A stretch of DNA of 14,549 nt from Candidatus Woesearchaeota archaeon (GTDB lineage Archaea; Nanobdellota; Nanobdellia; Woesearchaeales; UBA12501), in the NCBI GenBank assembly GCA_026394915.1, contig JAPLZS010000145.1, positions 1 to 14,549 on the forward strand, read 5' to 3'. The position numbers and the translations under genes are program-made. The notes beneath the pieces were generated by a model. That model made no database searches and was not told the DNA's origin. It saw only the letters and a list, made by a program, of their open reading frames with translations. Below, piece by piece: positions 1 to 14,441 of this stretch; positions within the stretch are counted from its first letter, which is position 1; each line of letters opens with the position of its first letter.

Positions 1-180
1 GGAAAAGGAATGGATGAGATACTTAAAAGCATGGATGTCCATTCAACAGAGACAAGCCAGGCTGATTACAAACTTTCGTCTCTTGCCTCAATAAGGCTTG
101 CAGTGAGAGTCCCATTCATGCTCAAAATGGCTGGAGAGGAGCTCTCTAATTTTGTTAGCAAGGGTTATCGTGATCTATAA
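1..180 (+). CDS. C-terminal end of an unidentified protein (5' end outside window)
   Basis: Frame 1 is open from the first base to a TAA at 178-180 and gives 59 residues ending in SKGYRDL. The stretch is mixed amphipathic, with a segment around residues 31-50 (IRLAVRVPFMLKMAGEEL) that could form a helix. I do not recognise the family from this fragment and assign no function. Coding is supported by the uninterrupted frame, by AGA/AGG arginine codons and ATA isoleucine codons like the neighbours, and by the T-rich run and a new promoter that follow the stop. The gene must start upstream of the window. Confidence 0.6.
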   Translation, partial: GKGMDEILKSMDVHSTETSQADYKLSSLASIRLAVRVPFMLKMAGEELSNFVSKGYRDL

Positions 181-195
181 GACTTAGAAGAGTAG

Positions 196-211
196 TATTG
201 TCTTTCTTTTT
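196..211 (+). terminator. T-rich archaeal-type terminator
   Basis: A pyrimidine run with a T5 tract lies 16-31 bases after the stop of the first partial gene. Archaeal RNA polymerase terminates at T-rich tracts in the non-template strand without needing a hairpin. The position between a stop codon and the next TATA box fits, but this is inference from composition. Confidence 0.4.
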
Positions 212-232
212 GGAGATTAACTGACAGAAAAG

Positions 233-242
233 ATTTATATAA
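233..242 (+). promoter_or_regulatory. TATA box for the lpxC-like gene
   Basis: TTTATATAAA preceded by an A-rich stretch (AGAAAAGA) that could serve as a BRE. It predicts a start of transcription near 262-268, giving a leader of about 35-40 bases. A GTGATC at 294-299, complementary to the conserved 3' end of archaeal 16S rRNA, lies 4 bases before the ATG at 304. Confidence 0.6.
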
Positions 243-303
243 ACGGTTCATTCGCTCTTCTTAAAAGAGGTCTATTACTGTCTATTCAATGATGTGATCA
301 GTC

Positions 304-1278
304 ATGAGCCTGAAAATATCTCAGAAAACACTGGAAAGCAGATGCAAATTACTGGGTTTTGCGATACATAATAGGGATAGTTCTGCAATACACATAATAG
401 GCGCAGAGCCGGATACGGGAGTATTATTCACTGATTATGAGACTAATAATGTGATACGTGCAGATATCAGAAATGCTGGATATGCTGGCAATGGAAGGAA
501 GACGACAATGCTCAGATAAAATGGTATAGGTGTACTATGCGTAGAGCATGTCCTTGCTGCGCTTTATCTAAGAGGAGTCACAAATGCAGAGATAATCTGC
601 CAAAAAAATGATAAGAATGATGAATCAGAAGATGAAGGATCAGCAAAAGAATGCGAAGTTCCGATGTATGACGGCTCAATAAGCCATATAATTGAGGCAA
701 TTGATAATGCAGGAGTAATAGCTCAGGAAGAGATGGTGAAAAAAGTATACAAGATCACTCAAGAGATATCTGTCTACTCAGGAGAAAGATTTGTGAAGGT
801 CTCTCCTATTGAAAGATACAGCGGAAAGAACCATCTTCAGCTTGATGTGGAAGTCGATTTCAAAAATCCAGGCATACCTTCGGGAAGATTAAATCTTTGT
901 CTTGACAGGGATGTCTATGAGAGAAGAATTATGGACAATCTTATAAGAGCAAGGACATTCTGCCTTGAAGAAGAGTTCAATGACATCGAAAAGCAAGAGC
1001 CAGGCACAAAAGGAAGAGCAAGGAAATATATGGTCATAGTAGATAGGCATGGAAATCCCGCTGTAGGGCAGAAAGGGGGATTCTCTTTTGTTGAAGAGCC
1101 TGTATACCACAAGACAGTCGATCTCATCGGAGACCTTAGTCTCCTGCAGTTGCCCCTGATTGCGCATGTGCAGGCATACATGCCTGGCCATGAGCTGAAC
1201 CTCGCGCTTGCAAGGGTAATATATGAAGAGACGCAGAAGGATAATGGAAAAGCGCAGCTTATTTCTCTGGTGCAGTAA
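304..1278 (+). pseudogene. lpxC: LpxC-like UDP-3-O-acyl-GlcNAc deacetylase, interrupted by an in-frame TAA
   Basis: LpxC is the zinc deacetylase that commits UDP-3-O-acyl-GlcNAc to lipid A synthesis. The frame from ATG 304 to TAA 1278 is continuous (324 residues, close to the usual 300 or so) except for one TAA at 517-519. Reading through it gives the expected LpxC layout. First comes an N-terminal half with GFAIHNRD and EPDTGVLF, then the EHVLAAL motif with E81 and H82, then EVPMYDGS. The second half has RTFCLEEEF and then HKTVDLIGD with H269, D273 and D277, followed by PGH with H296. The spacing H-4-D-4-D-19-H equals that of the E. coli zinc ligands and active site. The TAA falls where LpxC proteins usually have K-N-G, so AAA to TAA is a likely single change. 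A hydrophilic acidic insert of about 16 residues (codons 97-114) precedes EVPMYDGS. Restart at ATG 664 would lose E81/H82. The family call is secure; whether the gene is truly dead is open. Confidence 0.85.
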
Positions 1279-1287
1279 AAAACAGAA

Positions 1288-1297
1288 AAATATAAAA
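1288..1297 (+). promoter_or_regulatory. TATA box for the CMP kinase gene
   Basis: AAATATAAAA lies with its centre about 27 bases before ATG 1321, so the transcript probably begins at or next to the start codon (leaderless). No Shine-Dalgarno-like sequence is seen before the ATG, which agrees. Confidence 0.6.
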
Positions 1298-1320
1298 CCC
1301 CTTCCTGATTCCTTATTCAG

Positions 1321-1884
1321 ATGATCATAACAATCTCAGGAAAGCCTGGCTCCGGCAAGAGCACTGTCGCAAAGCTCGTCGCAAGAAAGCTTGGCCTGAA
1401 GCATCATTCTATCGGAGACTTATGGAGAGGCATGGCAGCAGAGAGGAATATGACAATCCTTGATTTCAACAAGCTTGTTGAGAAAGACAAGGACATTGAT
1501 ATCGAGACAGACAGGAAACAGGAGGAATTGGGAAGAAAAGAGGACAATTTTGTGATTGACGGCAGGATGAGCTTCCATTTCATACCAAAATCGACAAAAG
1601 TCTTCCTTGATGTGAATGAGGAAGAAGGGGCAAAGAGGATATTCCAGCAGAATAGGGGTGGAGTTGAGCAGTTTTCTGAATTTGATGACGCTCTTGAGAG
1701 CATACAGAGAAGAGAGATGTCAGAGACAAAGAGATACAAGAAGCTTTACAAGGTCAACTACACTGATCATTCCAATTTTGACATTGTGATAGACACCACA
1801 AGAATGCCTCCAGAGAAAGTTGCTGAGAAGATAGTGAAGACAATAAGCATGTTCAAAGAAGCAAAACGGAAACAAAACCTTTAA
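1321..1884 (+). CDS. cmk: Archaeal-type cytidylate kinase
   Basis: This enzyme transfers phosphate from ATP to CMP and dCMP in the cytoplasm, supplying CDP for nucleotide and CDP-lipid synthesis. The 187-residue product has the P-loop GKPGSGKST at residues 7-15, a KHHSIGDLWRGMA segment that matches the NMP-binding start of the family, and the conserved IDIETDRKQEELG stretch at about 60-72 followed by FVIDGRM. A variable lid follows (about 105-135). Length and order match archaeal Cmk, which is shorter than most bacterial Cmk proteins. The gene is monocistronic as far as can be seen: it has its own TATA box and an FKBP promoter overlaps its stop. An adenylate kinase-like role is possible from the P-loop alone, but the GKPGSGKST plus DRKQEEL pair favours Cmk. 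Confidence 0.9.
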   Translation: MIITISGKPGSGKSTVAKLVARKLGLKHHSIGDLWRGMAAERNMTILDFNKLVEKDKDIDIETDRKQEELGRKEDNFVIDGRMSFHFIPKSTKVFLDVNEEEGAKRIFQQNRGGVEQFSEFDDALESIQRREMSETKRYKKLYKVNYTDHSNFDIVIDTTRMPPEKVAEKIVKTISMFKEAKRKQNL

Positions 1885-1890
1885 ATATAC
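1880..1890 (+). promoter_or_regulatory. TATA box overlapping the cmk stop codon
   Basis: TTTAAATATA covers the TAA of cmk. It predicts transcription starting near 1911-1914, giving a leader of about 75 bases to the FKBP start at 1987. A second TATA-like run (GTATATAAT, 1903-1911) could be an alternative promoter. Confidence 0.5.
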
Positions 1891-1911
1891 CCCCCTAATC
1901 CTGTATATAAT

Positions 1912-1941
1912 CCTTCTAGGTTTTCTAACAGAGCTAGAGGG
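1912..1941 (+). other. Hairpin in the 5' leader of the FKBP gene
   Basis: CCTTCTAG (1912-1919) pairs with CTAGAGGG (1934-1941) in an 8-bp stem with one G-U pair around a 14-base loop. It begins at about the predicted 5' end of the transcript. No known riboswitch is recognised. It may be a stability or control element, or chance. Confidence 0.35.
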
Positions 1942-1986
1942 TAGTGGAAAGTACATAATTCAGGCAGGGGTAAAAAATAGGGCAAG

Positions 1987-2618
1987 ATGGCAGAAACAAT
2001 AAAGAAAGGAGATTTCATAGAGCTTGAGAATACTGCAAAGACTGAAGACGGAACCATATTCGACACGTGTGCGTCGGAGAGGGACATATTGTTCCAGGGC
2101 TTGACGCAGAGATTGAAGGAAAAGAGACAGGAAAGGATTACAGTATAGCAGTCTCTCCTGAGAATGGATTCGGAAAAAAAGACGCAAAGCTCATCCAGCT
2201 CATATCGACAGGTAAGTTCAGGAAAGAGAACATCCAGCCAATGCCTGGCCTGCAGGTCAATATCGACGGGACTTATGGAATCGTGAAAAGCGTCAGCGGA
2301 GGAAGGACTATTGTTGACTTCAACCACCCATTGTCCGGCCAGAACCTCATCTATGACATCAGGATCGTGAAGATAGTCAATGATGATAGGGAAAAGATTA
2401 AGGCGATGATTGAGCTCAAACTGGGGCTGAAGGACATTGAAGTAGAATTCAATGAAGGCAAGGCCATAATAATCACAAAAAAAGACCTGAAGATCCCTGC
2501 AGAGGTCACAAAAGCGATTTCAGATGAGATATCAAAATCAATACCTGCTCTCAAGAGTATGGAATTCACATCAAAGAAGGACGACAAGCCGAAACAAGAG
2601 GGAAAAGAGGCCCAATAA
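1987..2618 (+). pseudogene. SlyD-like FKBP peptidyl-prolyl isomerase, frameshifted by a deletion
   Basis: FKBP-type isomerases catalyse cis-trans isomerisation at proline and act as chaperones. From ATG 1987 the first frame reads MAETIKKGDFIELENTAK then DGTIFDT, the normal FKBP start, and would end at a TAG at 2146-2148 (53 residues). From about 2067 the second frame carries CVGEGHIVPGLDAEIEGKE, NGFGKKDAKLIQLI, PGLQVNIDG and DFNHPLSGQNL, the rest of the FKBP fold with its inserted-flap domain, then a C-terminal domain of about 75 residues ending in a charged tail. The linker that normally lies between FDT and VCVGEGH in archaeal SlyD-like proteins (about 20-25 residues) is missing, and the frame changes at 2064-2069. 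This looks like a deletion that is not a multiple of three. GTG 2067 could start a protein of 183 residues, but it would lack the first FKBP strands. Confidence 0.8.
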
Positions 2619-2651
2619 TGCATAGAATAACATGTAGAATATCCGACAAAA

Positions 2652-2662
2652 CATTTATATAC
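2652..2662 (+). promoter_or_regulatory. TATA box for the ftsZ-secE-spt5 cluster
   Basis: CATTTATATAC lies about 75 bases before the ftsZ ATG. It gives a leader of around 50 bases that carries a GGGGAG Shine-Dalgarno-like sequence at 2717-2722. A second weaker AT-rich candidate (GATAAATATTC, 2682-2692) is closer to the gene. Confidence 0.5.
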
Positions 2663-2733
2663 AAGCATGATATCGTTTGAGAGATAAATATTCAAAAAAG
2701 AGGGCTTAAAAGTTGTGGGGAGCGTGGAAAAAA

Positions 2734-3867
2734 ATGAACTCTGAAAATGCTGGATCTTATGAGGAGAATGATGCAAAGAATGCATCAATGCCTATTGTTG
2801 AGGACATGAAGGCAACAATGATGGATGCTGAACTTGAGGCATATCTGACAAAGCAGAAAGCAAGCATAAAAGTGATTGGAACAGGCGGCGGTGGAAACAA
2901 CACAATCAACAGGATAACAGAAGTCGGTGTCAAGGGCGCAGAGACAATAGCTGTAAACACAGATGCCCAGGACCTTCTTTACACTCATGCTGACAAGAAG
3001 ATACTGATAGGAAGGGAGACTACAAAGGGCCTTGGCGCAGGATCCATACCAAAGATAGGAGAGGAGGCTGCAAAGGAGAACGAGTCTGAGATAAAGGCTG
3101 CGATAAAAGGATGTGATATGATATTCATAACATGCGGCCTCGGTGGAGGGACAGGAACAGGTTCTGCTCCTGTGATTGCTGAGATCTCAAAGAAGTTGGG
3201 CGCATTGACAGTGGGGATTGTCACAATGCCTTTTGCAATGGAAGGGAAGCGTAGATATGAGAACGCTGTGATAGGCCTTGAGAAGCTTGAGAATATCGTC
3301 GATACTCTCATAGTGATACCTAATGACAAGCTTCTTGAGATCGCTCCTGATCTGCCATTGCACACAGCATTCAAGGTAGCTGATGAGATACTCACAAATG
3401 CAGTCAAGGGAGTTGCAGAGCTTGTGACAAGAGCAGGCCTGATAAACCTTGATTTCGCAGACATAAGGACAGTCATGGGCAACGGAGGAGTTGCCCTTAT
3501 CGGTGTAGGAGAGTCTGACACAGAGAACAGGGCATGTGAAGCTGTTGAGAAGGCAATAAACAATCAATTGCTTGATGTCGACATATCAGGCGCAAGCGGC
3601 GCCCTGATAAACATAAGCGGCGGACCGGACATGACTCTTGATGAGGCAAGGAAGGTTGTCGAGATAGTGTCAGAGAAGCTTGATGAGGACGCAAGGATAA
3701 TCTGGGGAGCCCAGATAAGCGATGACCTCAAGAACACAGTCAGGGCATTGCTCATAATAACCGGCGTCAAATCAACGCAGATATTCGGCACAGAGAGGCA
3801 AGCCTCAGTGTCCACAAGAAAGAAAAAAGAGATAGAGACAGAACTTGGCATAGAGTTCATTGACTGA
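2734..3867 (+). CDS. ftsZ: Cell division protein FtsZ
   Basis: FtsZ is the tubulin-like GTPase that forms the division ring at mid-cell. The product (377 residues from ATG 2734) has [13 protein letters not shown] near residues 50-62, AVNTDAQDL, the tubulin signature GGGTGTG at 137-143, the phosphate/ribose-contact region [13 protein letters not shown], the T7 catalytic loop [11 protein letters not shown], and the C-terminal domain with [10 protein letters not shown] and IIWGAQI. A variable acidic N-terminal tail of about 40 residues precedes the GTPase core, and the end (ELGIEFID) is short. An in-frame TTG at 2713 would add seven residues, but GGGGAG at 2717-2722 is placed to serve ATG 2734. 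The secE start follows the stop by 5 bases, so ftsZ heads a translation-coupled cluster with secE and spt5, an order seen in other archaea. Confidence 0.97.
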
Positions 3868-3872
3868 AGAAG

Positions 3873-4067
3873 ATGGAGCTTGAATCAAATTCATGGTCAG
3901 TTAAGCTGAAGCTTTTTGCAGCTGAGTGCGTAAGGGTTCTCAAGGTTACAAAGAAACCTACAAGCATTGAATTCAAGACAATTGTCAAGGTGTCTGCATT
4001 GGGGATAGCCATAATAGGCCTGATGGGCTTTGTGCTTTTTTTCCTGAAAGAGATGCTTGTGAAATGA
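3873..4067 (+). CDS. secE: Preprotein translocase subunit SecE (Sec61 gamma)
   Basis: SecE clamps the SecY channel in the cytoplasmic membrane and is needed for Sec-dependent export. The 64-residue protein has the typical archaeal layout: an amphipathic N-terminal helix with CVRVLKVTKKPTSIEF, the conserved K-P-xxxEF segment, then one membrane span (about residues 39-60, VKVSALGIAIIGLMGFVLFF). It lies between ftsZ and spt5 with very short gaps (5 and 12 bases). The secE-spt5 pairing is widespread, also as secE-nusG in bacteria. The small size and single span make sequence recognition rest partly on context, but both agree. Confidence 0.92.
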   Translation: MELESNSWSVKLKLFAAECVRVLKVTKKPTSIEFKTIVKVSALGIAIIGLMGFVLFFLKEMLVK

Positions 4068-4079
4068 TGAAGTGATACT

Positions 4080-4784
4080 ATGAGTGAAGATGAACTGAAC
4101 AACGAGGACAAGGAAGAAGATTCAGAGGAAGAGATGGGAGAGAAAAGCGAAAGCCCTGTTCCAGAAGAGCTCTCTGAAGACATTGAGAAAGAGGATCCTG
4201 CTGAAGAATCAGTCGAAGAACGCAAGGAAGAGGAAGAAGCAGATGAGGAAAAGGAAGAGAAGCCCAAGAAGAAGAAAGCAAAGAAAGAAGAGAAACCTGA
4301 AGTTGTAGAGACAACTGAGCCAAAGGTCTTTGCATTGAGGACAACTGCCAACAGGGAAGACCAGGTCATGGATTTCATCACAAGCAACATAGAGAAGAAA
4401 AAAGACCTAAGAGACTATTCGGTGATAAGACCTAATGGGATGAGGGGTTACATATTCGTTGAAGCGGCTACAAGGTTTGACGCTGAGCAGGCTGCGATGA
4501 ACATACCCTATGCAAGAGGAATCTTGCCTAAGGTAGTCGAGTATTCTGAGATGGAGCACATGCTTGAGCAAGTCAAGCAGGAAGTCGACATCAGGAAGAA
4601 TGACATTGCAGAGATCATAGCAGGGCCGTTCAAGAGAGAGCAGTGCAAGGTCACAAGGATCGACAAGGCAAAGGAAGAGGTTGTTGTCGAGCTGCTTGAG
4701 GCTGCTGTTCCGATACCTATCACTGTGAAGATGGACGCAATCAAGGTGATAAGGAGAGAAGGCGAGAGCACGCCTGAAGACTGA
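4080..4784 (+). CDS. spt5: Transcription elongation factor Spt5 with acidic N-terminal extension
   Basis: Spt5, the archaeal/eukaryotic counterpart of NusG, binds the RNA polymerase clamp (with Spt4) and aids elongation. Residues 81-165 form the NGN domain (PKVFALRTTANREDQ, then RPNGMRGYIFVEA and YARGILPKVVEYSEME). Residues 172-225 form the KOW domain (DIAEIIAGPFKREQCKVTRI, then EVVVELLEAAVPIPITV). The usual archaeal protein is about 150 residues. This one is 234 because of an 80-residue, Glu/Asp-rich N-terminal stretch that turns Lys-rich at 61-73. ATG 4080 is the first start after secE, with GATGAAGTGAT before it; the start could be later, but no in-frame ATG lies between residue 19 and the NGN domain. 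The extension recalls the acidic N-terminus of eukaryotic Spt5; whether it is homologous is unknown. Confidence 0.95.
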   Translation: MSEDELNNEDKEEDSEEEMGEKSESPVPEELSEDIEKEDPAEESVEERKEEEEADEEKEEKPKKKKAKKEEKPEVVETTEPKVFALRTTANREDQVMDFITSNIEKKKDLRDYSVIRPNGMRGYIFVEAATRFDAEQAAMNIPYARGILPKVVEYSEMEHMLEQVKQEVDIRKNDIAEIIAGPFKREQCKVTRIDKAKEEVVVELLEAAVPIPITVKMDAIKVIRREGESTPED

Positions 4785-4788
4785 TATT

Positions 4789-5169
4789 ATGAAGACTCAA
4801 GATGTAGAACTGATAATCGAAACAGAAGAAATTTCTTTACTTCCTGATATCAAGAAAGCATTGGATGAATTGGATATTATCTTGGCAGCAGATTATGAAG
4901 GAATTGATAAAGAGTATAGGCAACGGATGAAGAAAGGAAGAGCAGAGATACATTTCTTTAAAGATAAGTCATTTGTTGCAGATGATGTGAAAGGAAGACT
5001 TATGATGATAGATTTAGGAACCAGTAATGAGTTAATTCCACCAGTCTCTGCAAAGGGATTAGAAGGGCTTTGTTCTCCATATGAAGTACACTATAATTCA
5101 GGCAATGTACAGATTGTAAAGAGGGGAGATTCCCCTATTAGATATCAGATTTCTACAATGCATGAATGA
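4789..5169 (+). CDS. Hypothetical protein between spt5 and uL11
   Basis: The 126-residue protein starts 4 bases after the spt5 stop, so it is probably cotranscribed and coupled. I do not recognise the family. It has no signal peptide, no membrane span and no clear metal or nucleotide motif. It reads as a small soluble alpha/beta protein: an N-terminal acidic strand (VELIIETEE), a helix (LPDIKKALDEL), a basic patch (YRQRMKKGRAEIHFFKDKSF), a strand-rich middle (RLMMIDLGTS) and a C-terminal GNVQIVKRGDSPIRYQIS. Its codons are more A/T-ending than those of spt5 and uL11, which are highly expressed, and this could mark a lower-expressed or later-added gene. A function in translation or transcription is suggested only by position. 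Confidence 0.7.
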   Translation: MKTQDVELIIETEEISLLPDIKKALDELDIILAADYEGIDKEYRQRMKKGRAEIHFFKDKSFVADDVKGRLMMIDLGTSNELIPPVSAKGLEGLCSPYEVHYNSGNVQIVKRGDSPIRYQISTMHE

Positions 5170-5187
5170 TATATCAGCATTGCATTA

Positions 5188-5200
5188 TATTTTATATACA
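5188..5200 (+). promoter_or_regulatory. Distal TATA box upstream of the uL11 gene
   Basis: ATATTTTATATAC lies about 80 bases before the ATG at 5273 and predicts a leader of around 50 bases. Together with the proximal box at 5239-5248 it forms a tandem promoter pair. Confidence 0.45.
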
Positions 5201-5238
5201 AGCCATTGTAGGGAATATACTTCCACATCCCCCAAAAT

Positions 5239-5248
5239 CTTTATAAAG
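5239..5248 (+). promoter_or_regulatory. Proximal TATA box of the uL11 gene
   Basis: CTTTATAAAG with A-rich upstream bases is centred about 28-29 bases before ATG 5273, predicting an essentially leaderless transcript. No Shine-Dalgarno-like sequence is seen between it and the ATG. Confidence 0.6.
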
Positions 5249-5272
5249 GACCTCTAAATCCAAATACTTATC

Positions 5273-6070
5273 ATGCCTAAACAGACAGTAGAAGCATTGG
5301 TAAACGGGGGGCATGCAACAGCAGCTCCTCCATTAGGGCCGGCATTAGGTCCATTAGGAGTCAATATAGGCCAGATCATAGCAGAAATAAACAAGAAGAC
5401 AGCTGACTTCAATGGCATGCAGGTTCCTATAAAGGTCATAGTAGATTCTTCTACAAAAGAGTTTAAGATAACAGTCGGAACTCCTCCAGTATCATCTTTG
5501 ATAAAGAAAGAGGCAAAGATCGAAAAAGGCTCAGGAAACCCGCTTCTGGACAAAGTAGCTGACATCAAAATAGAGCAGGTGATCAAGATCGCAAAGATGA
5601 AAGGAGATGCACTTCTCGGAAAAGCGATGAAGCAGAGAGTGAAAGAGATCATCGGCACATGCAATTCAATGGGCGTCCTTGTAGAAGGAGTGCCTGCAGT
5701 CGAGGCCATCCAGCTTGTCGAGCAGGGAAAGTTCGACGAAGAGATAAGGACAGAGAAGACAGAGCTTTCTGCAGAAGAGATGAAAGAGCTCGAGGAAGAG
5801 AGAAAGAAGCTCGAGGAAGAGATGAAGACAAGAAGAGCAGAGTTCGAATCAAGGGCAAAGCAGATCATAAACGAGCTGACAGGCAAGACAAGGGCAGAGA
5901 TAAAGGCAAAGCTCATAGAGGCAAAGATACCTGCAAAGATGATAGAGGAATTGTTGCCTACCGATGCAGCAGCCGGAGCAGCAGCTCCTGGAGCAGCGCC
6001 AGCGCCTGGTGCAGCACCTGCAAAGGGCGCAGCGCCAGCACCTGAGAAGAAGGCAGAGAAAAAAGCATAA
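5273..6070 (+). CDS. rpl11: Large ribosomal subunit protein uL11 with long C-terminal extension
   Basis: uL11 sits at the base of the ribosomal stalk and helps control elongation-factor GTPases. Residues 1-157 form the normal protein: an N-terminal domain with the proline-rich APPLGPALGPLGVNIGQII and a C-terminal rRNA-binding domain with GTPPVSSLIKKEA, KMKGDALLGKAMK and EIIGTCNSMGVLVEG. Archaeal uL11 usually ends at about 160-165 residues; this one has 265. Residues 160-195 are a charged, heptad-like helix (KELEEERKKLEEEM), 196-228 look like a small helical domain, and 230-258 are Ala/Pro/Gly-rich, ending in EKKAEKKA. The last part resembles the flexible hinge of stalk proteins P1/P2. No uL1, uL10 or P1 genes follow, although they often do. 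Two TATA boxes upstream make the gene independently transcribed. Confidence 0.95.
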   Translation: MPKQTVEALVNGGHATAAPPLGPALGPLGVNIGQIIAEINKKTADFNGMQVPIKVIVDSSTKEFKITVGTPPVSSLIKKEAKIEKGSGNPLLDKVADIKIEQVIKIAKMKGDALLGKAMKQRVKEIIGTCNSMGVLVEGVPAVEAIQLVEQGKFDEEIRTEKTELSAEEMKELEEERKKLEEEMKTRRAEFESRAKQIINELTGKTRAEIKAKLIEAKIPAKMIEELLPTDAAAGAAAPGAAPAPGAAPAKGAAPAPEKKAEKKA

Positions 6071-6176
6071 AAAATTTGCGGCATATATATCTCATTTTCT
6101 TTAAGTGATCAATTGCGATTCAAATTATGTCTTTTTGGTGATTATATTATTACTTTAAAGTAGTTATAAAACAAAA

Positions 6177-6186
6177 GATTTAAATA
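6177..6186 (+). promoter_or_regulatory. TATA box of the Nudix-like/HAD gene pair
   Basis: GATTTAAATA is centred about 29 bases before ATG 6211, giving a leaderless transcript. A second AT-rich run (TTAAATATAT, 6194-6203) is too near the ATG to act as the TATA box for it. Confidence 0.5.
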
Positions 6187-6210
6187 ATAGGGATTAAATA
6201 TATACTTGAT

Positions 6211-7257
6211 ATGGAACCCCTTGCAGAATTAGCGGAGATATATTGCCCATCTTTGACTGAAGCTTCTCCTATTAAAGTGCAATATAATCAAAAAGAAGGC
6301 ATACAAAAAAGTGTGAGAGGAGTAAAAGACAGGCTGGATATTCTGATAAGCGCAAAAAGAGAATATCTCGGCCTGTCAAAAGTCAAGCCAATTCATATGT
6401 CAAGGGATCAGGCAGAATCTTTGAGACAATCTTTGAAAACAGACAGGCAATGGATCAATAATTTTGAAGAATTGATCGGCTTATTGGCCCCTAAACTGAA
6501 CAGCCTCACCTTAGACGAGAAACTGGCTCCGATAAATATTCCCTGGTGGAATGCGGGCCTGCTGTTCTCAAGCAGAGATCATTATGATGAAACAGCAGGA
6601 TCACTAGAGCTTGATGCCACAATATCGCATTCATACATAACACAGTTGATCCGTTCCCAAAAGCCTGGAGAGCAAAGAGGTAAGACAATATCTGTAAGCA
6701 ATCTGCTGATAACATCAGATGATCTTATTGTCCTTGGCTACAGAGGAGGGCAGAATCTGCCTGACACAATAATGACTGTTCCTGCTGGCTCTGTTGAATA
6801 TCACACAGGCAGGAACCCTCTATTTGAATCAATGTACGCTGAATTTGCGGAAGAATTGGGATTAAGAAAAGAGGATATGCAGACAATAGAGCTTATGGGC
6901 AAGATAACAACACGGGCTTTCATAAACAACCCGCATTACACATTCAGGTCAAGAACAAGATTATCATTTGAGGACGTGAAGAAGGTTTGGTCAGAATCAG
7001 AGGACCAGAGAGAGCATAAACACCTGGTATCATTTCCTGACAATCCAGACCATATGATTAGAGAGATAAGGAGACTCAGTTATGATATATCAAAGGCAAA
7101 TCCTGACAAGCCAGCTCTAACAACAAACGAGAATATAGGGAAGATACTTCCGCAGTGCGCAGCAGCTGTCCTGCTGCACTATGTCCAGAGAGAGGGAAAA
7201 GAATGGGCTAGGATGGCAGAAGAAAAACTGGGAGGAGATTATAAACTTGTAAGATAA
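6211..7257 (+). CDS. Nudix-like domain protein with a degenerate Nudix box
   Basis: The 348-residue protein has in its middle a Nudix-like segment. LLITSDDLIVLGYRGG (165-180) looks like the first strands of the fold, followed by VPAGSVEYHTGRN and then AEFAEELGL at 210-218. The second part matches the REUxEExGU half of the Nudix box with R replaced by A. The first half has G193 and E206 at spacings that do not fit the GX5EX7 rule. The acidic EFxEE residues that bind metal are kept. About 160 residues before it (PWWNAGLLFSS) and 130 after it are not recognised. Nudix enzymes hydrolyse nucleoside diphosphates linked to another group; the substrate here cannot be read from sequence. It has its own TATA box, and a HAD-like gene follows after 11 bases, so the two may act in one pathway. 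Confidence 0.65.
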   Translation: MEPLAELAEIYCPSLTEASPIKVQYNQKEGIQKSVRGVKDRLDILISAKREYLGLSKVKPIHMSRDQAESLRQSLKTDRQWINNFEELIGLLAPKLNSLTLDEKLAPINIPWWNAGLLFSSRDHYDETAGSLELDATISHSYITQLIRSQKPGEQRGKTISVSNLLITSDDLIVLGYRGGQNLPDTIMTVPAGSVEYHTGRNPLFESMYAEFAEELGLRKEDMQTIELMGKITTRAFINNPHYTFRSRTRLSFEDVKKVWSESEDQREHKHLVSFPDNPDHMIREIRRLSYDISKANPDKPALTTNENIGKILPQCAAAVLLHYVQREGKEWARMAEEKLGGDYKLVR

Positions 7258-7268
7258 ACAGAATTATC

Positions 7269-8006
7269 ATGATAAAAAAAGATAAAAAGACAGAGGAAAA
7301 TAAAAAAGATATTCTTATATTATTCGATGTAGGCGGAGTTCTTCTTAAACTGGATTATAATCGGTTTTATGAAGCAGCAGCAAGACTGTCAGGAACTATG
7401 AACGCAGGCGAATTCAAAAATCGATTTGTTGAAAGTGGAATTGAGTTCATGGCAATAAAAGGCGAGATAAAGGCTGCTGATTACCTGCAGAGGCTCAGGG
7501 AGATGATTTCGCCGCAAGAAGATGCTACAGATGATGAACTAAAAAGGATACGTGGATATTGCTGGAAAGAACGGGTGGATGAAGCTGTCAGCTTAAAAAG
7601 AAGATTGCATGAAAACAAATATTCTGTTGGGATACTCTCAAACATCTCAGATTTTGCTCTGGAGACTATATCTTCCAGATATCCTGAGATGCTTGAAACC
7701 TATGACAGATCATCTCCCAGGATATACTCTTTCCAGATTGGTTCTATGAAGCCTGAACTGCTGATGTATCAGGCAATAAAGGGATATAACAAAGTAATCC
7801 TTATTGATGATAAGGAGAGCTATCTTAGGACAGGCATAGAAGAGTTTGGGTGGAACGGAATATTATTCACTCCATTCATAGATGAGGCAGAGGCAATACG
7901 CTCAATACACAATAATAAAGAGATACCAAGAGATAATTTCAGTGTTGCTGGCTCTATGAAGGAACTTGAATCATCATTGAATAAGCTAGGTATAAAAACA
8001 GAATAA
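7269..8006 (+). CDS. HAD superfamily hydrolase (phosphatase-like)
   Basis: HAD enzymes use an aspartate nucleophile to cleave phosphate esters or similar bonds. All four motifs are visible in this 245-residue protein. Motif I is LFDVGGVLL with D20, where the second aspartate is replaced by glycine as in several HAD-IA groups. Motif II is ILSN with S124, motif III GSMKPE with K161, and motif IV ILIDDKESY with D180 and D181. The helical cap lies between motifs I and II (about 30-115), as in class C1. A Gly in place of the second Asp of motif I occurs both in epoxide/haloacid-type members and in some phosphatases, so the substrate is open. The gene lies 11 bases after the Nudix-like gene. A Nudix-HAD pair could act in sequence on a nucleotide-linked substrate; this is inference. 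Confidence 0.8.
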   Translation: MIKKDKKTEENKKDILILFDVGGVLLKLDYNRFYEAAARLSGTMNAGEFKNRFVESGIEFMAIKGEIKAADYLQRLREMISPQEDATDDELKRIRGYCWKERVDEAVSLKRRLHENKYSVGILSNISDFALETISSRYPEMLETYDRSSPRIYSFQIGSMKPELLMYQAIKGYNKVILIDDKESYLRTGIEEFGWNGILFTPFIDEAEAIRSIHNNKEIPRDNFSVAGSMKELESSLNKLGIKTE

Positions 8007-8030
8007 AAAATAAGAAAAGAATGAAAAGAA
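8003..8030 (-). terminator. T-rich terminator for the minus-strand gene pair
   Basis: Read on the minus strand, the bases after the stop of the membrane-anchored gene contain several T-runs, including a T6. This suits archaeal T-tract termination between the two convergent genes. It overlaps the end of the HAD gene by a few bases. Confidence 0.4.
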
Positions 8031-8783
8031 TCAGGCATTTGTCATATTGAATATGGCATTTGTGTCGTTTGTCTTATCCTTGCCATTCTTGCCACAGAAA
8101 TAAATGATGGTATTTATGTTCCTCTGATTGACATCATCAAGCTCATCATATGTCTTGTTCAGGTTCTTTATCCAGAACTTGGATATGTCTATCTGTTTTG
8201 CTTCTTCAGGATATTCATCAAGCATCCTTGAAAGGGCCTCAACAGCGATCCTTCCCTGCTTCACGCTGATGTTAAAGTTCATTGAAGCCTCTTCGACATA
8301 AGGCCTTTCAGAGCATTTGAATCCGTCAGCTGTCAATCCTTTTGTGGTCTTTGTCGCAAGCCTGAAATGCTGCTCTGAATCAAGAAGAGCCACTCTCGCA
8401 TTCACAAGAAGCTTTGCAGCAGTGTCTTCCTTTAGATTGTGGAACAGCTCATGCACTCCTTCAAGATCCCCTATCACGCCCTCGTATTCATTCAGGTTTA
8501 TCTCCTTCGGGAATCTTGGATGGAATTTGAGGTATGAAACTCCGTTATCATAGTCATGCAGCGACATGCCATTCTCCTGGTCTATAACGTTCAATTCCTC
8601 AAGAGTCTCACTGAATGATTTCTCTTTTGAGAGGAATATGCATAAAGCGGCTATTGATATCAGTATGACTGCGCCTGCAATCACTGCAATGATTTTCTTA
8701 TTTATAGGCTTAGATGCAGGTTTATCAGATGCCTTGTTTGCCTTCCTGCTGGCATTCTTGTTTGATTTAGATCTCTTTTTCAT
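8031..8783 (-). CDS. Hypothetical membrane-anchored protein
   Basis: The 250-residue protein begins with about 30 very Lys/Ser-rich residues, followed by one membrane span at about 31-51 (IIAVIAGAVILISIAALCIF). The remaining 200 residues would face outside under the positive-inside rule. This outer part is rich in charged, helix-like segments (GVHELFHNLKEDTAAKLLVNARVALL; RIAVEALSRMLDEYPEEAKQ) and has two cysteines, in DGFKCSERP and YFCGKNG, that could form a disulphide. I recognise no family. A strong Shine-Dalgarno-like GAGGTGG lies 6 bases before the ATG and overlaps the stop region of the Trx-CcdA gene upstream (9-base gap), so the two genes are almost surely cotranscribed. The pairing with a disulphide-transfer protein suggests, but does not prove, that its cysteines are a substrate. 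Confidence 0.75.
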   Translation of the reverse strand: MKKRSKSNKNASRKANKASDKPASKPINKKIIAVIAGAVILISIAALCIFLSKEKSFSETLEELNVIDQENGMSLHDYDNGVSYLKFHPRFPKEINLNEYEGVIGDLEGVHELFHNLKEDTAAKLLVNARVALLDSEQHFRLATKTTKGLTADGFKCSERPYVEEASMNFNISVKQGRIAVEALSRMLDEYPEEAKQIDISKFWIKNLNKTYDELDDVNQRNINTIIYFCGKNGKDKTNDTNAIFNMTNA

Positions 8784-8792
8784 TGTTCCACC

Positions 8793-9890
8793 TCATAGCC
8801 ATCCTAAATAAAGGGATGCAAGCATCCCTATTCCAAGCAATAGTATTATTATCCCTGCAATAAGATGCAGAACCTTCAGCTCCCTCTGCCTCCACTCCTC
8901 TGCTTTCTCTGTTGTTGTGAATCCAAAGTATATTGCAAGAGTGATGATCATCATAGGAAGTATGAATATCAGATTGTATAGCAATAAAAGGGGTATTGCT
9001 GCTGCTCTTGTTGCTGTTTTTGAGAGAAGACCTATTATCACTACATACGGCCCTGATGAACATGGCAGAAGGAAAAGGCTTACAAGCATCCCTACAAAGA
9101 ATGCCCCTGGAACAGATGTGACGCTCTTGAGGAGAATCTTCATCCTTGGCCTCCACGCCCTAGGGACTTCCATTATGAACCATTTCCCGTACCAGAAATA
9201 ATCCTTGATGTTGAATAGGCCGATCACCAATGCGAGTATCGAGACAACAATATAAAATATATGAGTAACTCCTGTCACCTGTATCGCAGAATAAAGGCCG
9301 AGTCCCATAAGGAAATACGAGAGATATACTGCTGCAGAGAACACAAGGCCTGCCAGCAATGCCTTCTTCTTGTTCTCCTTGCTTGCAGAGAGTATTGTCG
9401 TGAGAAGTATGATGAGGACTGCGAATGCGCATGGATTTATCGCATCGACTGCAGCTGCTCCGAGCAGCGCTGGGATCGTGACAAATGTTGCGGGAACTTT
9501 CCCGTCAACACTCTTCATCTCGCACTTGTTCTGAGTGCAGTATTTTATCTGCTCTTCAACAGCCTGCTCTGTCAACGGTGAATCTCCGATGAACACCTTG
9601 TCGCCTATGAACACAGTTGGAACTCCCTGCACTTCAGCGCCATATGCAACTGAAAACTTCTGGAGAAGATCTGCATTCTTAGGATCAGTTATGTCATAGC
9701 TTATGACATTAAAATCATATTTGGAGGTTATGCTGTCAAGAAAGCTTTCCATATTTGCGCAGTGTATGCAGCCTGCTCTCTTGAATATGTGCACATCTGC
9801 CTTATTCTGCTGCGCCAATGCGGTTGATGATAAGAGTGCAGCTATGAATACAAGAAGCACTATATGAAAGAAACGCATCTTTTTTCCCAT
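8793..9890 (-). CDS. Thioredoxin-like domain fused to a CcdA/DsbD-type membrane electron carrier
   Basis: The protein is predicted to carry reducing power across the membrane to disulphides outside. Residues 1-27 are a signal peptide (MRFFHIVLLVF then ALLSSTALA). Residues 30-120 form a thioredoxin/glutaredoxin-like domain with CIHC at 41-44 and the cis-proline loop GVPT at 89-92. An extra pair C118/C123 (YCTQNKC) follows. From about 138 to the end are six or so membrane spans with the CcdA cysteines NPCAF (C154) and LPCSSGPY (C277). The frame is open to 10061, but the added N-terminal part is not coding-like. ATG 9890 fits a leaderless start, because a TATA box is centred 26 bases upstream; ATG 9878 (MRFF) is an alternative. 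A membrane-anchored cysteine protein follows in the same operon. The electron donor and target are unknown. Confidence 0.88.
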   Translation of the reverse strand: MGKKMRFFHIVLLVFIAALLSSTALAQQNKADVHIFKRAGCIHCANMESFLDSITSKYDFNVISYDITDPKNADLLQKFSVAYGAEVQGVPTVFIGDKVFIGDSPLTEQAVEEQIKYCTQNKCEMKSVDGKVPATFVTIPALLGAAAVDAINPCAFAVLIILLTTILSASKENKKKALLAGLVFSAAVYLSYFLMGLGLYSAIQVTGVTHIFYIVVSILALVIGLFNIKDYFWYGKWFIMEVPRAWRPRMKILLKSVTSVPGAFFVGMLVSLFLLPCSSGPYVVIIGLLSKTATRAAAIPLLLLYNLIFILPMMIITLAIYFGFTTTEKAEEWRQRELKVLHLIAGIIILLLGIGMLASLYLGWL

Positions 9891-9909
9891 ACCCCTGTTT
9901 TTTGGGCCG

Positions 9910-9920
9910 GGATATTTAAA
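9910..9920 (-). promoter_or_regulatory. TATA box of the Trx-CcdA operon
   Basis: On the minus strand CTTTAAATATC is centred about 26 bases before ATG 9890, so transcription should begin at the start codon. This decides the start in favour of 9890 over the upstream in-frame codons. Confidence 0.6.
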
Positions 9921-9995
9921 GCTTATGGATTTCTGATACATGAAATGATGATGATATTTTATATATAGAGTAAAGAGGGTAAGAATAGAGGGAAA

Positions 9996-10005
9996 ATTAT
10001 ATAAA
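9996..10005 (+). promoter_or_regulatory. TATA box of the truncated gene at 10040
   Basis: ATTATATAAA, with GGGGGG at 10027-10032 as a Shine-Dalgarno-like sequence 7 bases before ATG 10040. An earlier AT-rich run (TTTTATATATAG, 9957-9968) is another TATA candidate in this divergent intergenic region of about 150 bases. Confidence 0.45.
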
Positions 10006-10032
10006 AGGATAGATATACTATATAGTGGGGGG

Positions 10033-10452
10033 CTAAAAAATGACCTTAATAATAGGGGCAAGATTGTAAAAATCGGCTTTGATCTGGCTGGCTACCGGAT
10101 AAATTGTTTTGTCCGGGTAAGTGAAGGCATTGATAAAAGTTTGCAGAGTGGAACGCATCAATTCTTTAAAAACATCCTTGAGTGGATACTTTTCAGAGCC
10201 GGCCAGCACGGAATGCTCCAGGATGTGGGGCAATCCCGTGGAATCTGCAGGCGGTGTGCGAAACCCGATCGCGTATAAATTTTCGCGGTCAAATGAATGC
10301 AGGTGGAGAACCTTGGCGCCTGTTTTATCATGCTCTATTTCGTAGGCCGTAACCCGCAGATCGGCAAATATTTGCACACGTAGGACTTTAAATCCATGCA
10401 GTATATCGCCTGCTTTAAGTGTCGGTTGGGGAAAGGTTGATTGATTAATCAT
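10033..10452 (-). CDS. N-terminal part of a PreP-like M16C metallopeptidase, cut at the junction
   Basis: PreP-type M16C proteases (about 970 residues) degrade peptides within a closed chamber. The window holds only the first 131 or so residues. The start GDILHGFKVLR is typical. HILEH is the inverted zinc-binding motif HxxEH, followed by SVLAGSEKYPLKDVF. TFINAFTYPDKTIYPVASQ and DFYNL are also strong family signatures. After DFYNL the homology stops. The last nine residues (APIIKVIF, reading to a stop at 10033) are reverse-strand archaeal promoter DNA and not part of the protein. The ATG at 10452 overlaps the pyrE stop by four bases (ATGA), so the gene is translationally coupled to pyrE. Confidence 0.85.
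   Translation of the reverse strand: MINQSTFPQPTLKAGDILHGFKVLRVQIFADLRVTAYEIEHDKTGAKVLHLHSFDRENLYAIGFRTPPADSTGLPHILEHSVLAGSEKYPLKDVFKELMRSTLQTFINAFTYPDKTIYPVASQIKADFYNLAPIIKVIF
10040..10063 (+). CDS. First codons of an archaeal gene, possibly proteasome beta-type, cut at the junction
   Basis: ATG 10040, with a TATA box and a G-rich Shine-Dalgarno before it, starts a reading frame MTLIIGAR. It meets a stop only two codons later, after the DNA has become bacterial. The residues resemble the start of archaeal proteasome beta-type Ntn hydrolases (MT-I-IG-K-KDGVV). Eight residues are too few for certainty. What is well supported is that a promoter and a start codon lead into a gene that is missing. 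Its loss at exactly the place where the bacterial gene is cut supports an artificial or recombinational join. Confidence 0.35.
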
Positions 10453-11024
10453 TTGTTTTTTGCCCGAAGCGCCATTATTTCGGTTCGGGTGAAAACTGAT
10501 TCTACATGATCAACATGCTTTAAAATATTTTCCCGGCCGCCTTCTTCCCGGTCAATTAGTGTGATAACTCTTTCGACCACAAGCCCGGCGAGACGTGCCT
10601 GTTCAATCGCGGTAATGGTTGAGCCGCCTGTGGTAATGACATCATCAATAATTATAACCTTTTCACCGGCCACAACATTGCCCTCAACTGCGCTTTTGGT
10701 GCCGTGTGCCTTGGCATCTTTGCGAACAATAAAAGATTTGATCGGTTTTCCTTTTTGGTAAGAAATTAAAGCCAGCGCATTGGCAATGGGATCAGCGCCC
10801 AGTGTCAACCCTCCCGCCGCTGTAATATCGTAACCTTTGATCATATCAAAAACAATTATGCCGATTAGATTCATCCCCTCCGGGTCGAGAGTTGTTGGTT
10901 TGCAATTAAAATAGAAATTACTTAACCTGCCGGAGGCCAGCGTGAAAGGCGGATTGTCGCTGTATTTGAAAGACCGAGCTAGAATTATTCGGCCTAGACG
11001 TTCTTTATGCTCTTCGGTAGTCAT
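10449..11024 (-). CDS. pyrE: Orotate phosphoribosyltransferase
   Basis: PyrE joins orotate to PRPP to give orotidine 5'-monophosphate in pyrimidine synthesis. The 191-residue protein has the PRPP-binding motif VIIIDDVITTGGS at about 125-137 (after the start at 11024), the flexible loop VRKDAKAHG, and SGRLSNFYFNCKP plus AAGGLTLGADPIA, all typical of the family. ATG 11024 is chosen because CTGGAGG lies 7 bases upstream; the frame is open further to 11078 but has no such site. The tonB stop lies 22 bases before this start, and the stop overlaps the start of the M16 peptidase gene (ATGA), so the genes form an operon. No attenuator or PyrR-type leader is seen in the 22-base gap. Confidence 0.95.
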   Translation of the reverse strand: MTTEEHKERLGRIILARSFKYSDNPPFTLASGRLSNFYFNCKPTTLDPEGMNLIGIIVFDMIKGYDITAAGGLTLGADPIANALALISYQKGKPIKSFIVRKDAKAHGTKSAVEGNVVAGEKVIIIDDVITTGGSTITAIEQARLAGLVVERVITLIDREEGGRENILKHVDHVESVFTRTEIMALRAKNK

Positions 11025-11046
11025 TTTATTTCCTCCAGTTTGCGCT

Positions 11047-11733
11047 TCATGATGAAGAGTTATCATCATGCAAAACAAATTTAATGGGCAATTTTACGCG
11101 GATAGCAAAAGGCTTCCCCGCTTTTTTTGCCGGTTCAAACTTCCATAGTTTTACTGCTTCCATTGCCGACTTATCTAAAATTGTGTAGCCGGAGGACTTA
11201 CTTATTGCTGTGTTTCCTACACGGCCATCCGGTAAAATTTCCGCGTTCACCAGAACAACACCTTCATAACCCCGAAGCTTTGCTATTGCTGGATATATTG
11301 GCGGAGTATTTTCTCGATAAAGCGGGCTGGCGCTGACAAAAGCCGCTGAATTTCCCGCTGCAGGCATCGCAGCTGCGCCTGAAATATTAGTGGAACTATC
11401 TGTGCCTGTTGCCTGGCCAACATTATCTTCTTTAACTGCGTAATTCTGAACAGGTATGTTCTTTGTTGTGCTGATAGTTGTGACCGCGTTTATTTTATCT
11501 GACTGAAATTGACTTCGGTCTGCCTTTTTTTCCTGAGGCAAGATTGTGGATTTACCGCTTTCCGATTCCAGCGAAACCCAGGCCAGGTTTAATTTGCTTA
11601 AATTTGGCGTAAAGTTTCCGTCACTTAGCAAACCCAGAATGAGAAGCGAGCCTACGGCTACGTGAATTATAATCGACGCACTCACAGACAATAAGAGATT
11701 TTGTTTTGCTATTTTAAGATTAATTAATGTCAT
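11047..11733 (-). CDS. tonB: TonB-like energy transducer
   Basis: TonB couples the proton gradient of the inner membrane to outer-membrane receptors, with ExbB/ExbD. The 228-residue protein has one N-terminal membrane anchor (about 14-36, LLLSVSASIIIHVAVGSLL) with the conserved histidine H24 in the span. A long, low-complexity periplasmic linker follows, rich in Ser/Thr/Ala rather than Pro. The C-terminal TonB domain (about 148-222) has YPAIAKLRGYEGVVLVNAEI, LPDGRVGNTAISKSSGY and AVKLWKFEPA. It starts 12 bases after the metH stop, with no obvious Shine-Dalgarno, which suggests coupling to metH translation. No exbB or exbD is in the window. The protein implies a diderm bacterium, which sets this part apart from the archaeal DNA. 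Confidence 0.92.
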   Translation of the reverse strand: MTLINLKIAKQNLLLSVSASIIIHVAVGSLLILGLLSDGNFTPNLSKLNLAWVSLESESGKSTILPQEKKADRSQFQSDKINAVTTISTTKNIPVQNYAVKEDNVGQATGTDSSTNISGAAAMPAAGNSAAFVSASPLYRENTPPIYPAIAKLRGYEGVVLVNAEILPDGRVGNTAISKSSGYTILDKSAMEAVKLWKFEPAKKAGKPFAIRVKLPIKFVLHDDNSSS

Positions 11734-11745
11734 CAGGTAAAATAT

Positions 11746-14151
11746 CTATTTTTTAATTAATTTTTCTACAACTCTGACTGCTTCTACGCCGTCTTTGGCA
11801 AAAGACGCGCCAATTGAGCTGGCATAGGATTCGGTAACTACCGCCCCACCAACCAGGAAATCGGTTTTGATCCCTTTGGCTCGAGCAAGGTCGATCAAAT
11901 CCTTCATGTTCACCATCGTAGTTGTCATCAGCGCCGAAAGACCAACAACATCGGGATTTTCTTTTTTCATCGCGTCAATTATTGTCTGATCGGGAACATC
12001 CTTGCCCAGATCAATAACATCATAACCATAATTTCGCAAAAGGAGGGCGACAATATTCTTACCAATATCATGAATGTCACCCCTGACCGTTGCCATTATT
12101 ATTTTACCTTTACCCGCCGCCGCTGTTTTCTTTAAGTGGGGCTCCAGGTAGCTAAGCGCCTTTTTCATTGTTTCTGCGGCGGACATAAGCTGTGGTAAAA
12201 AATAAATCTTCTTTTCGTATAAATCGCCCACACGGACAATGGCGGGGATCATTATCTGATCAACTAACTCTGAGGCCTGTGTGCCGCCTGCAAGCTCTAA
12301 ATCAATTAAAGTAATAATGTTTTCCCTGTCACCTTCGATTATTGCGGCGGCAATTTTTTCCCGCGGAGTAGCGGTTTGTTTTCCAACATCGGCAGACGAT
12401 GCAGAACCTGGCTGGACAGAAAAATGTTCAATAAAGCTCAGGGTACTTTTATCTTTAGCCGTTAGCGTGTCACTTGCTTTTTTTACATTCATCAATTCCA
12501 CACTGGAGGGATTGGCAATAGCCATAGTCAGGCCGCAATATTGCGCCATGGCCAGAAATGAAGCATTGAGCCAGGGACGCCCCGGCATACCGAAAGAAAC
12601 ATTGGAAAGGCCGAGGATGGTTTTACTTTTAAACGTTTCGGTACACCAAATAAGCGTCTTGAGAGTTTCCTGCGCCGCGACGGGATCGGAGGCTATGGCC
12701 ATGACCAGACAATCCACAATAAAATCGTCTTTGGTGAAGCCGAACTTTTTTGCCTTCTGAAAAATATTGTTGATCAAGGCTTGACGCTTTTGAGCGGTTT
12801 TAGGCAGATCGCCACCGGTCAGAGGCAGAAGAATAAACATGGCTCCATACCTGGCAGCCAGCGGCAAAAGCCTGTCTAATTTTTCTTTTTCTCCAGAGAT
12901 GGAGTTAATCAGCATCCGCCCAGGATAGAGCCGCAGTGCGGCTTCGATAGTTTCTATGCGAGAAGAATCCACAACCAGTGGCAGTTTAGTCGTTGTCGCC
13001 AAAAGGCCGATTACGGCTTTAATTGTTTTTACTTCATCGATACCGGGCTGGCCGACGTTTACATCCAGCAGGTTCGCGCCCAGCTTTTCCTGTTCCTGCG
13101 CCATAAGGCGAATGATCGACATCTTACCCTCTGTCAGTTCCTGCTGCAGGGCTTTTTTACCGGTGGGGTTGATTCTCTCGCCAACGATGCAAAGCGGTTG
13201 ATTATCCGTTAAATATAAAAAACTTCGTGCTGAGCTAAGCGCGCTGATTGATATTCTTCCAGGTAATTTGGGTTTGCTGCTTGCCGTTGTTTTGGCCAGT
13301 TTTTCGATATGCGCAGGTGTTGTGCCGCAGCACCCGCCGATCATATTGGCTCCGGCTGCCGCAAGATTTCGGCCATAAGAAGCAAAAGTCTTGGCGTCCA
13401 TATCAAAAACTGTTTTCCCGCCTTCCAGGCGAGGGACTCCGGCATTGGGTTTAGCAACCAGTGGCACCGTAGCATAAGGCTTCATGGCCGCGATAAATTC
13501 CAGCATTTTTTCAGGACCGGTGGAGCAGTTACAGGCCACGGCATCGGCACCAAGACTCTGCAATGTGATGAGGGCGCTTACCGGATCAGTTCCCCCCAGT
13601 GTGTGGCCGTCCTTTTCATAGGTCATGGATACAACAGTAAAGATGTCGGCTATCTCTTTAACGGCAATAAGCGCCGCGCGTGCTTCCTGAATATCAATCA
13701 TGGTTTCGATGACAATAAGATCACAGCCGCCGTCAATCAAGCCGCGAACCTGCTCTTTAAAGGCATCTACTGCTTCTTCAAAAGCCAGCGGGCCGAAAGG
13801 CTCGATAAATAAGCCGGTAGGTCCGATATCTCCTGCAACCAGCACTTTTTTGCCACAAGATTGTTTGGCAAGAGAAGCAAGTTCAGCGTTAATTCGGCGG
13901 ATGTCTTTTGAAATTCCGTATTGCTTGAGTTTGAAGCGATTGGCGCCGAAAGTACAGCTATAAACTATCTGTGCTCCAGCTTTTGAATAAGAGGCATGCA
14001 CATCCCGAATAATTTGTGGATTATCCAAGCACCACTGCTCCGGACAAACTCCGGCAGGCAATCCCTTTTTTTGCAGCTCTGTGCCGGTGGCTCCATCCAA
14101 AATAATAATTTTATTAGTCAGATTTTTTATAATTTTACTGCTTTTTGTCAT
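11746..14151 (-). CDS. metH: Cobalamin-dependent methionine synthase, short form without reactivation domain
   Basis: MetH moves a methyl group from methyltetrahydrofolate through cobalamin to homocysteine. The 801 residues hold four domains. The homocysteine domain (about 1-290) has DGATGTELQ and the zinc cysteines C209 (NC), C274 and C275 (GGCCGT). The folate-binding domain (about 318-575) has IVGERINPTGKK and LLDVNVGQPGIDE. The cobalamin cap domain covers about 600-685. The B12 domain has the DIHDIG motif with the cobalt ligand H694 and ends in VRVVEKLIKK. The C-terminal AdoMet reactivation domain of E. coli MetH (1227 residues) is absent, as in many anaerobes, which may use a separate protein for reactivation; none is seen here. 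ATG 14151 is chosen because AGGA lies 8 bases before it and ILDGATG follows at the normal distance; the frame is open to 14244. It heads the metH-tonB-pyrE-peptidase operon. Confidence 0.95.
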   Translation of the reverse strand: MTKSSKIIKNLTNKIIILDGATGTELQKKGLPAGVCPEQWCLDNPQIIRDVHASYSKAGAQIVYSCTFGANRFKLKQYGISKDIRRINAELASLAKQSCGKKVLVAGDIGPTGLFIEPFGPLAFEEAVDAFKEQVRGLIDGGCDLIVIETMIDIQEARAALIAVKEIADIFTVVSMTYEKDGHTLGGTDPVSALITLQSLGADAVACNCSTGPEKMLEFIAAMKPYATVPLVAKPNAGVPRLEGGKTVFDMDAKTFASYGRNLAAAGANMIGGCCGTTPAHIEKLAKTTASSKPKLPGRISISALSSARSFLYLTDNQPLCIVGERINPTGKKALQQELTEGKMSIIRLMAQEQEKLGANLLDVNVGQPGIDEVKTIKAVIGLLATTTKLPLVVDSSRIETIEAALRLYPGRMLINSISGEKEKLDRLLPLAARYGAMFILLPLTGGDLPKTAQKRQALINNIFQKAKKFGFTKDDFIVDCLVMAIASDPVAAQETLKTLIWCTETFKSKTILGLSNVSFGMPGRPWLNASFLAMAQYCGLTMAIANPSSVELMNVKKASDTLTAKDKSTLSFIEHFSVQPGSASSADVGKQTATPREKIAAAIIEGDRENIITLIDLELAGGTQASELVDQIMIPAIVRVGDLYEKKIYFLPQLMSAAETMKKALSYLEPHLKKTAAAGKGKIIMATVRGDIHDIGKNIVALLLRNYGYDVIDLGKDVPDQTIIDAMKKENPDVVGLSALMTTTMVNMKDLIDLARAKGIKTDFLVGGAVVTESYASSIGASFAKDGVEAVRVVEKLIKK

Positions 14152-14258
14152 AAAAATATCCTGATTTGCATATGTTTCTTTAAGGTGCGCTCTTATATCA
14201 TCTTTAACGCAAAAAATGTGGATTTTTTTATTGTGAAACTCCAATTCCGAAAGCGCAG

Positions 14259-14432: not shown

Positions 14433-14441
14433 AATCTGTTT

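Follow-up and report, generated by a model that had tools for sequence, protein, structure and literature searches.

We analysed a stretch of 14,549 nucleotides (the window; contig JAPLZS010000145.1 of a Candidatus Woesearchaeota archaeon) that carries, at 304–1278 on the forward strand, a full-length homologue of LpxC, the bacterial UDP-3-O-acyl-N-acetylglucosamine deacetylase, which normally takes part in making lipid A, the toxic lipid of bacterial outer membranes, and which is treated as a lipid A marker and a Gram-negative drug target and is also present in plants. The reading that we favour, with somewhat more confidence than doubt, is that LpxC was acquired from a bacterium and domesticated in one archaeal genus, where it may deacetylate UDP-amino sugars that go into a surface glycan or a glycolipid. 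In the proposed zinc-dependent reaction, a UDP-N-acetyl-amino-sugar, with UDP-GlcNAc or a 3-substituted form of it as the candidate substrate, would lose acetate from its amino group, and the resulting sugar nucleotide, its amine now free, would be used for a surface glycan or an archaeal glycolipid. Below, G000 denotes the window's own genome and G001 and G002 the other two genomes, each a separate species, of the same genus; type I denotes the LpxC of this genus (three rows in our alignments), and types II and III two other, archaea-type clades.

An LpxC homologue with the bacterial catalytic set

Read through its single in-frame stop, the window gene gives a conceptual frame of 325 positions. 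Its match to PF03331 covers profile positions 1–267 of 268 (E 3.2e-49, 166.6 bits against a curated cut-off of 27; 166.9 bits when the stop is treated as X), which places the protein in the family. The LpxC equivalog TIGR00325, with a cut-off of 187.25 bits, was not reached by the proteins of the window (112.3 bits), G001 (104.7 bits) or G002 (128.3 bits), and none of six archaeal proteins passed the NCBIfam LpxC equivalog cut-off. The archaeal protein is set apart from bacterial LpxC by these scores, by an identity of 27–30% to E. coli LpxC and by an altered acyl-tunnel insert. The features of the gene and its intact homologues are as follows.

517..519, forward strand: in-frame TAA stop, which interrupts the window lpxC; the gene is intact in the two other genomes of the genus
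544..549, forward strand: codons of E81 and H82, equivalent to E. coli E78 and H79
946..960, forward strand: RARTF motif, holding the equivalents of E. coli R190, T191 and F192, where acyl-tunnel insert II begins
1108..1134, forward strand: HKxxDxxxD motif, equivalent to E. coli H238, K239, D242 and D246
1186..1200, forward strand: GHxxN motif, equivalent to E. coli G264, H265 and N268
L007:6327-7322, reverse strand: intact homologue in G001
L008:3093-4040, forward strand: intact homologue in G002

All three type I proteins, the window's included, keep E78, H79, H238, D242 and H265 (E. coli numbering), that is, the zinc ligands and the acid–base residues, and likewise D246 and N268; type I also has T191, K239 and an aromatic residue at 161. 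A predicted structure of the G002 homologue has the complete two-domain LpxC fold, and H79, H238 and D242 form the same zinc site as in bacteria. The original prediction had described an intact active site at E. coli spacing. The catalytic positions that it named (E81, H82, H269, D273, D277 and H296 in the window protein) are indeed present, but the gene is not intact, the TAA at 517–519 having been overlooked; the spacing equals that of E. coli within the motifs, whereas the stretch from H82 to H269 is longer by 28.

Types II and III are two clades that the original prediction had missed. They belong to the same family as type I and retain the same zinc and acid–base residues, and a predicted structure of a type III protein has the same fold as LpxC, but they form separate groups in the tree and carry a signature that type I lacks. 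D246 is absent from all 66 type II and III rows (replaced by E in three), and N268 is replaced by D in 61 of the 66 and by E in two. T191 is absent from 65 of these rows, and K239 from 41 of the 42 type III rows. The residue at position 161, which stacks on uracil in LpxC, is an F or a Y in 248 of 250 bacterial rows, in all type I (3/3) and type III (42/42) rows and in 22 of 24 type II rows; such wide conservation suggests that UDP binding is probably kept.

Phylogeny and distribution

We built a tree of 81 rows. The bacterial side was represented by E. coli and 42 of the 249 bacterial-type rows, and the archaeal types by G178 and 18 of 24 type II rows, 16 of 42 type III rows and the three type I rows. 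Type I (support 100/100), type II with G178 (100/100) and type III (100/99) each formed one group. Type I fell, on a long branch, among bacterial LpxC beside P0191, P0066 and P0070 (99/88), and its placement was the same when types II and III were removed (98/90). The tree position, the bacterial residue set and the restriction to one genus together favour a transfer of type I from bacteria, which we consider likely and not proven. An origin of P0191, P0066 and P0070 in Planctomycetes or Verrucomicrobia is only a guess. Among the closest known kinds of protein is the LpxC–FabZ fusion (NF009667/PRK13188), which is the first NCBIfam match for the G001 and G002 proteins and the second for the window protein; the sister row P0191 is such a fusion, whereas the archaeal protein is without the FabZ part.

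Of 352 genomes of the order, which is presumably Woesearchaeales, 13 have PF03331; the domain is also present in 6 of 371 genomes drawn from the phylum and in 5 of 60 genomes of the nearest set; these counts include the window's own genome, and the three sets overlap and hold 13 carrier genomes in total, of about 1.0 to 1.8 Mb. One carrier, G331, was set aside as probable contamination. Within the family, each of the three genomes of the genus carries the gene, and none of the seven others does. Among 14 control genomes, four matched PF03331, all of them bacteria, and the four archaeal controls gave no match. Types II and III are archaeal wherever they are named and occur in the same order of archaea as type I, and several of their proteins bear the NCBI name UDP-3-O-acyl-N-acetylglucosamine deacetylase.

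Several carriers and rows have further particulars. The G002 draft holds both a type I (L008) and a type II (L009, contig C7) LpxC. A type II lpxC in G035 lies near genes for GlmS, a GlmU-like nucleotidyltransferase–HAD fusion and a CofD-family protein (L010:1911-8861). A type II-like lpxC in G269, typed by eye, is split across two frames (L028:11017-11885), and an intein-bearing elongation factor 2-type gene adjoins the type III lpxC of G213 (L027:9550-12354). P0079 and P0272 combine LpxC with a response-regulator receiver domain (PF00072) in a single protein.

Partner genes of lipid A synthesis

We searched the carriers then known for partner genes; G436, G446, G452 and G514 were found later and lie outside these searches, and the nine-genome sets include G331. 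LpxA did not reach the cut-off in any of nine carriers, LpxB was not found in the nine carriers searched, and LpxD and KdtA were not found in the eight carriers searched, as the original prediction had anticipated for lipid-pathway genes. Because these partners were not found, the enzyme probably serves a different purpose here. A cryptic lipid A-like pathway, in which unrecognized acyltransferases supply acylated UDP-GlcNAc, would be in keeping with weak partial hexapeptide matches to LpxA in seven of the nine carriers and with FabA/FabZ-like hot-dog genes in three of eight (G041, G213 and G269; for example, L113). However, all 14 controls also matched in the LpxA search, four of them above the cut-off, the three carriers with hot-dog genes have other LpxC types, and FabA/FabZ gave no match in the three genomes of the genus; together with the missing LpxB, LpxD and KdtA, these results make such a pathway very improbable. 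GlmS-sized frames with SIS matches were present in all eight carriers.

The acyl-tunnel insert

In LpxC, the acyl chain sits in a tunnel formed by insertion II (PMC13333357). The window protein has this insert, but its GGSLENA motif is changed. G209 is found in 241 and N214 in 237 of 250 bacterial rows, and type I has I or K and Y or H at these positions. Changes at the insert are present, but they are less telling about a new substrate than the original prediction had hoped of the acyl passage, as the nearest bacterial rows (P0066, P0070 and P0191) are also without GGSLENA, and G209 is kept in all 24 type II and in 40 of 42 type III rows. This pattern means that the change is no mark of archaea.

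The altered insert also bears on the idea that the protein acts on material of co-living bacteria, such as a lipid A precursor or an acylated UDP-sugar that the archaeon has scavenged. The carrier genomes are small, which suits a dependent life, and type I keeps every residue of the bacterial catalytic set, T191, K239 and D246 among them. Against this, GGSLENA has been lost, and the LpxC substrate is cytoplasmic in bacteria. We regard scavenging as improbable.

Archaeal setting of the gene

The genes around lpxC and the elements ahead of it are as follows.

234..241, forward strand: TATA-like run TTTATATA ahead of lpxC
263..273, forward strand: 11-mer AAAAGAGGTCT just ahead of lpxC, also at L008:3058 (G002) and L007:7345 (reverse strand, G001)
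1321..1884, forward strand: cytidylate kinase gene cmk (PF13189, 5.1e-21; PF02224, 1.8e-17), which adjoins lpxC throughout the genus (three genomes)
1987..2618, forward strand: gene of an FKBP26-type isomerase, split over two frames and lacking a stretch that G001 has (PF22199 on 2067–2618; tblastn with the G001 protein)
2713..3867, forward strand: FtsZ (PF00091, PF12327; 84.6% identity to the G001 protein)
3873..4067, forward strand: protein of 64 residues without a Pfam match, conserved in G001, a putative SecE by its position
4080..4784, forward strand: Spt5 with NGN and KOW domains (PF03439, 8.8e-16; 87.5% identity to G001 over 152 residues)
5273..6070, forward strand: ribosomal protein L11 (PF00298, PF03946)

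The block has the identical order in G001 (lpxC, cmk, FKBP, ftsZ, small protein, Spt5), with identities to the window over the matched parts of 37, 61, 58, 85, 69 and 88%, respectively. In G002, an intact lpxC is followed by cmk, and the contig ends shortly after. G002 is catalogued as 'Nanoarchaeota archaeon' Modern_marine.mb.317, and the database name attached to the G001 protein is 'Candidatus Woesearchaeota archaeon'. A TATA-like run precedes lpxC in all three genomes; the original prediction had given the gene its own TATA box. Exact copies of AAAAGAGGTCT, counted on both strands, number one in G000 (the lpxC copy; the count covers the fetched part of 40 contigs plus window positions 1–10,050), three in the 445,581 bases of G001 and one in the 16,497 bases of G002.

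Near 10,030–10,060 the window turns apparently bacterial, with a piece of an M16 peptidase gene followed by phosphoribosyltransferase, TonB and MetH genes. It is probably a chimeric contig whose last third (about 10030–14549) is bacterial and in which the M16 peptidase fragment is cut at the join, judging from gene content rather than from a comparison. The chimera lends some colour to the suspicion that lpxC is bacterial contamination or lies on the bacterial side of the join. However, lpxC lies about 9 kb from the putative join, in a block that also occurs in the two other genomes of the genus, and next to Spt5 and L11, so we give this explanation almost no weight. The placement beside CMP kinase, FtsZ and Spt5, away from the bacterial side, was read correctly by the original prediction, and on the evidence of same-genus synteny we conclude that the archaeal residence of lpxC is real.

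The in-frame stop

Either an error in the sequence or its assembly or a nonsense mutation of recent date accounts for the TAA at 517–519. In a neutral simulation (300 runs from the G002 gene to 42% identity, substitutions only), a mean of 11.5 stops and a minimum of three arose, compared with the single stop in the window. The frame was under selection until recently. Codon positions 1 and 2 have changed less than position 3. An error is plausible, since the draft also breaks the FKBP gene and that of ribosomal protein L3, which a living cell requires and which has a missing stretch and a frame change without any N (L080 5639-6566, contig C28 of the same genome; aligned), so that lesions in this draft need not be real. 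As to draft quality, 20,666 of the 261,591 bases fetched from this genome are N, none of them in the window, and 21 of the 66 G001 frames that were matched in the draft were flagged: four reflect N gaps, several are paralogues, shadow frames or unresolved, and one, aIF2-beta, is a false alarm. Genes for an Elp3-type protein and a P-type ATPase look broken from match coordinates alone.

A recent loss is plausible as well, given that the window copy has diverged faster than the sister copies: LpxC identity is 38.6% between the window and G001, 42.9% between the window and G002 and 63.3% between G001 and G002, and the corresponding Cmk identities are even (59.3, 55.1 and 55.7%). The window copy would then be a pseudogene of an lpxC that is functional in the sister species, an explanation to which the TAA itself and the broken FKBP gene two genes on also lend support. 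Set against it are the open frame around a single stop, the retention of all catalytic residues, the constraint on codon positions 1 and 2, the conserved upstream elements and the broken L3 gene. We consider a pseudogene unlikely, though a serious contender.

Weighing the proposed role

Several observations weigh against a transferred and domesticated deacetylase with a new substrate. Approximately unbiased (AU) tests did not reject a single bacterial clade separate from every archaeal type (p 0.391) or a grouping of type I with type III (p 0.188), so the transfer that the original prediction had put forward is favoured by the tree and stops short of proof. The change in insert II, being common to nearby bacterial rows, tells less about a new substrate, and the retention of G209 by types II and III means that the insert marks no common archaeal use. 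Partner searches were limited to LpxA, LpxB, LpxD and KdtA; LpxH, LpxI, LpxK, LpxL and LpxM were not searched. The carrier drafts are 76–93% complete, two of the three genomes of the genus being below 80%, so a partner could be missed in any one genome. Such a deacetylation is usually the work of a PIG-L enzyme, and a separate PIG-L gene (PF02585) is present in each of the three genomes of the genus and in five of eight carriers overall; PIG-L/LmbE-type enzymes have a fold unrelated to LpxC and probably share with it the zinc-dependent deacetylation of a GlcNAc unit. Finally, the faster change of the window copy counts here too, and decay of lpxC in the window's species is possible.

A role as a UDP-amino-sugar deacetylase for surface glycans nevertheless appears to us the likeliest. 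More tentatively, and at somewhat less than even confidence, enzymes of the LpxC family may deacetylate UDP-amino sugars in archaea, in a role separate from lipid A synthesis, and may have been recruited at least twice: once in the lineage of types II and III, in which the carboxylate that steers the catalytic histidine would have moved from position 246 to 268, and once by a separate bacterial transfer (type I) that keeps the bacterial site, with G002 using both.

Our literature search, in one open library without subscription papers and preprints, returned nothing on LpxC together with Woesearchaeota or with Asgard. Judged by titles and the starts of abstracts, none of the papers listed by broader searches has archaeal LpxC as its subject; among them, PMC516016 and PMC5007114 contain both search words. 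Term searches of the accessible text did not find 'lpx' in PMC9938205 and PMC4975002 or 'archaea' in PMC3087551 and PMC13333357.

Significance

By sequence comparison, an archaeal LpxC is present in a genus in which the searched partners were not found, and two further clades, of the archaea type, have an altered catalytic dyad. If archaea keep the LpxC active site without these partners, the fold would serve another reaction. The archaeal proteins would offer naturally occurring versions of a drug target whose catalytic dyad and tunnel have been rebuilt. They also call for caution, in that a metagenome scored as 'lpxC present' does not have to contain lipid A, and they open a test of what these archaea display on the cell surface.
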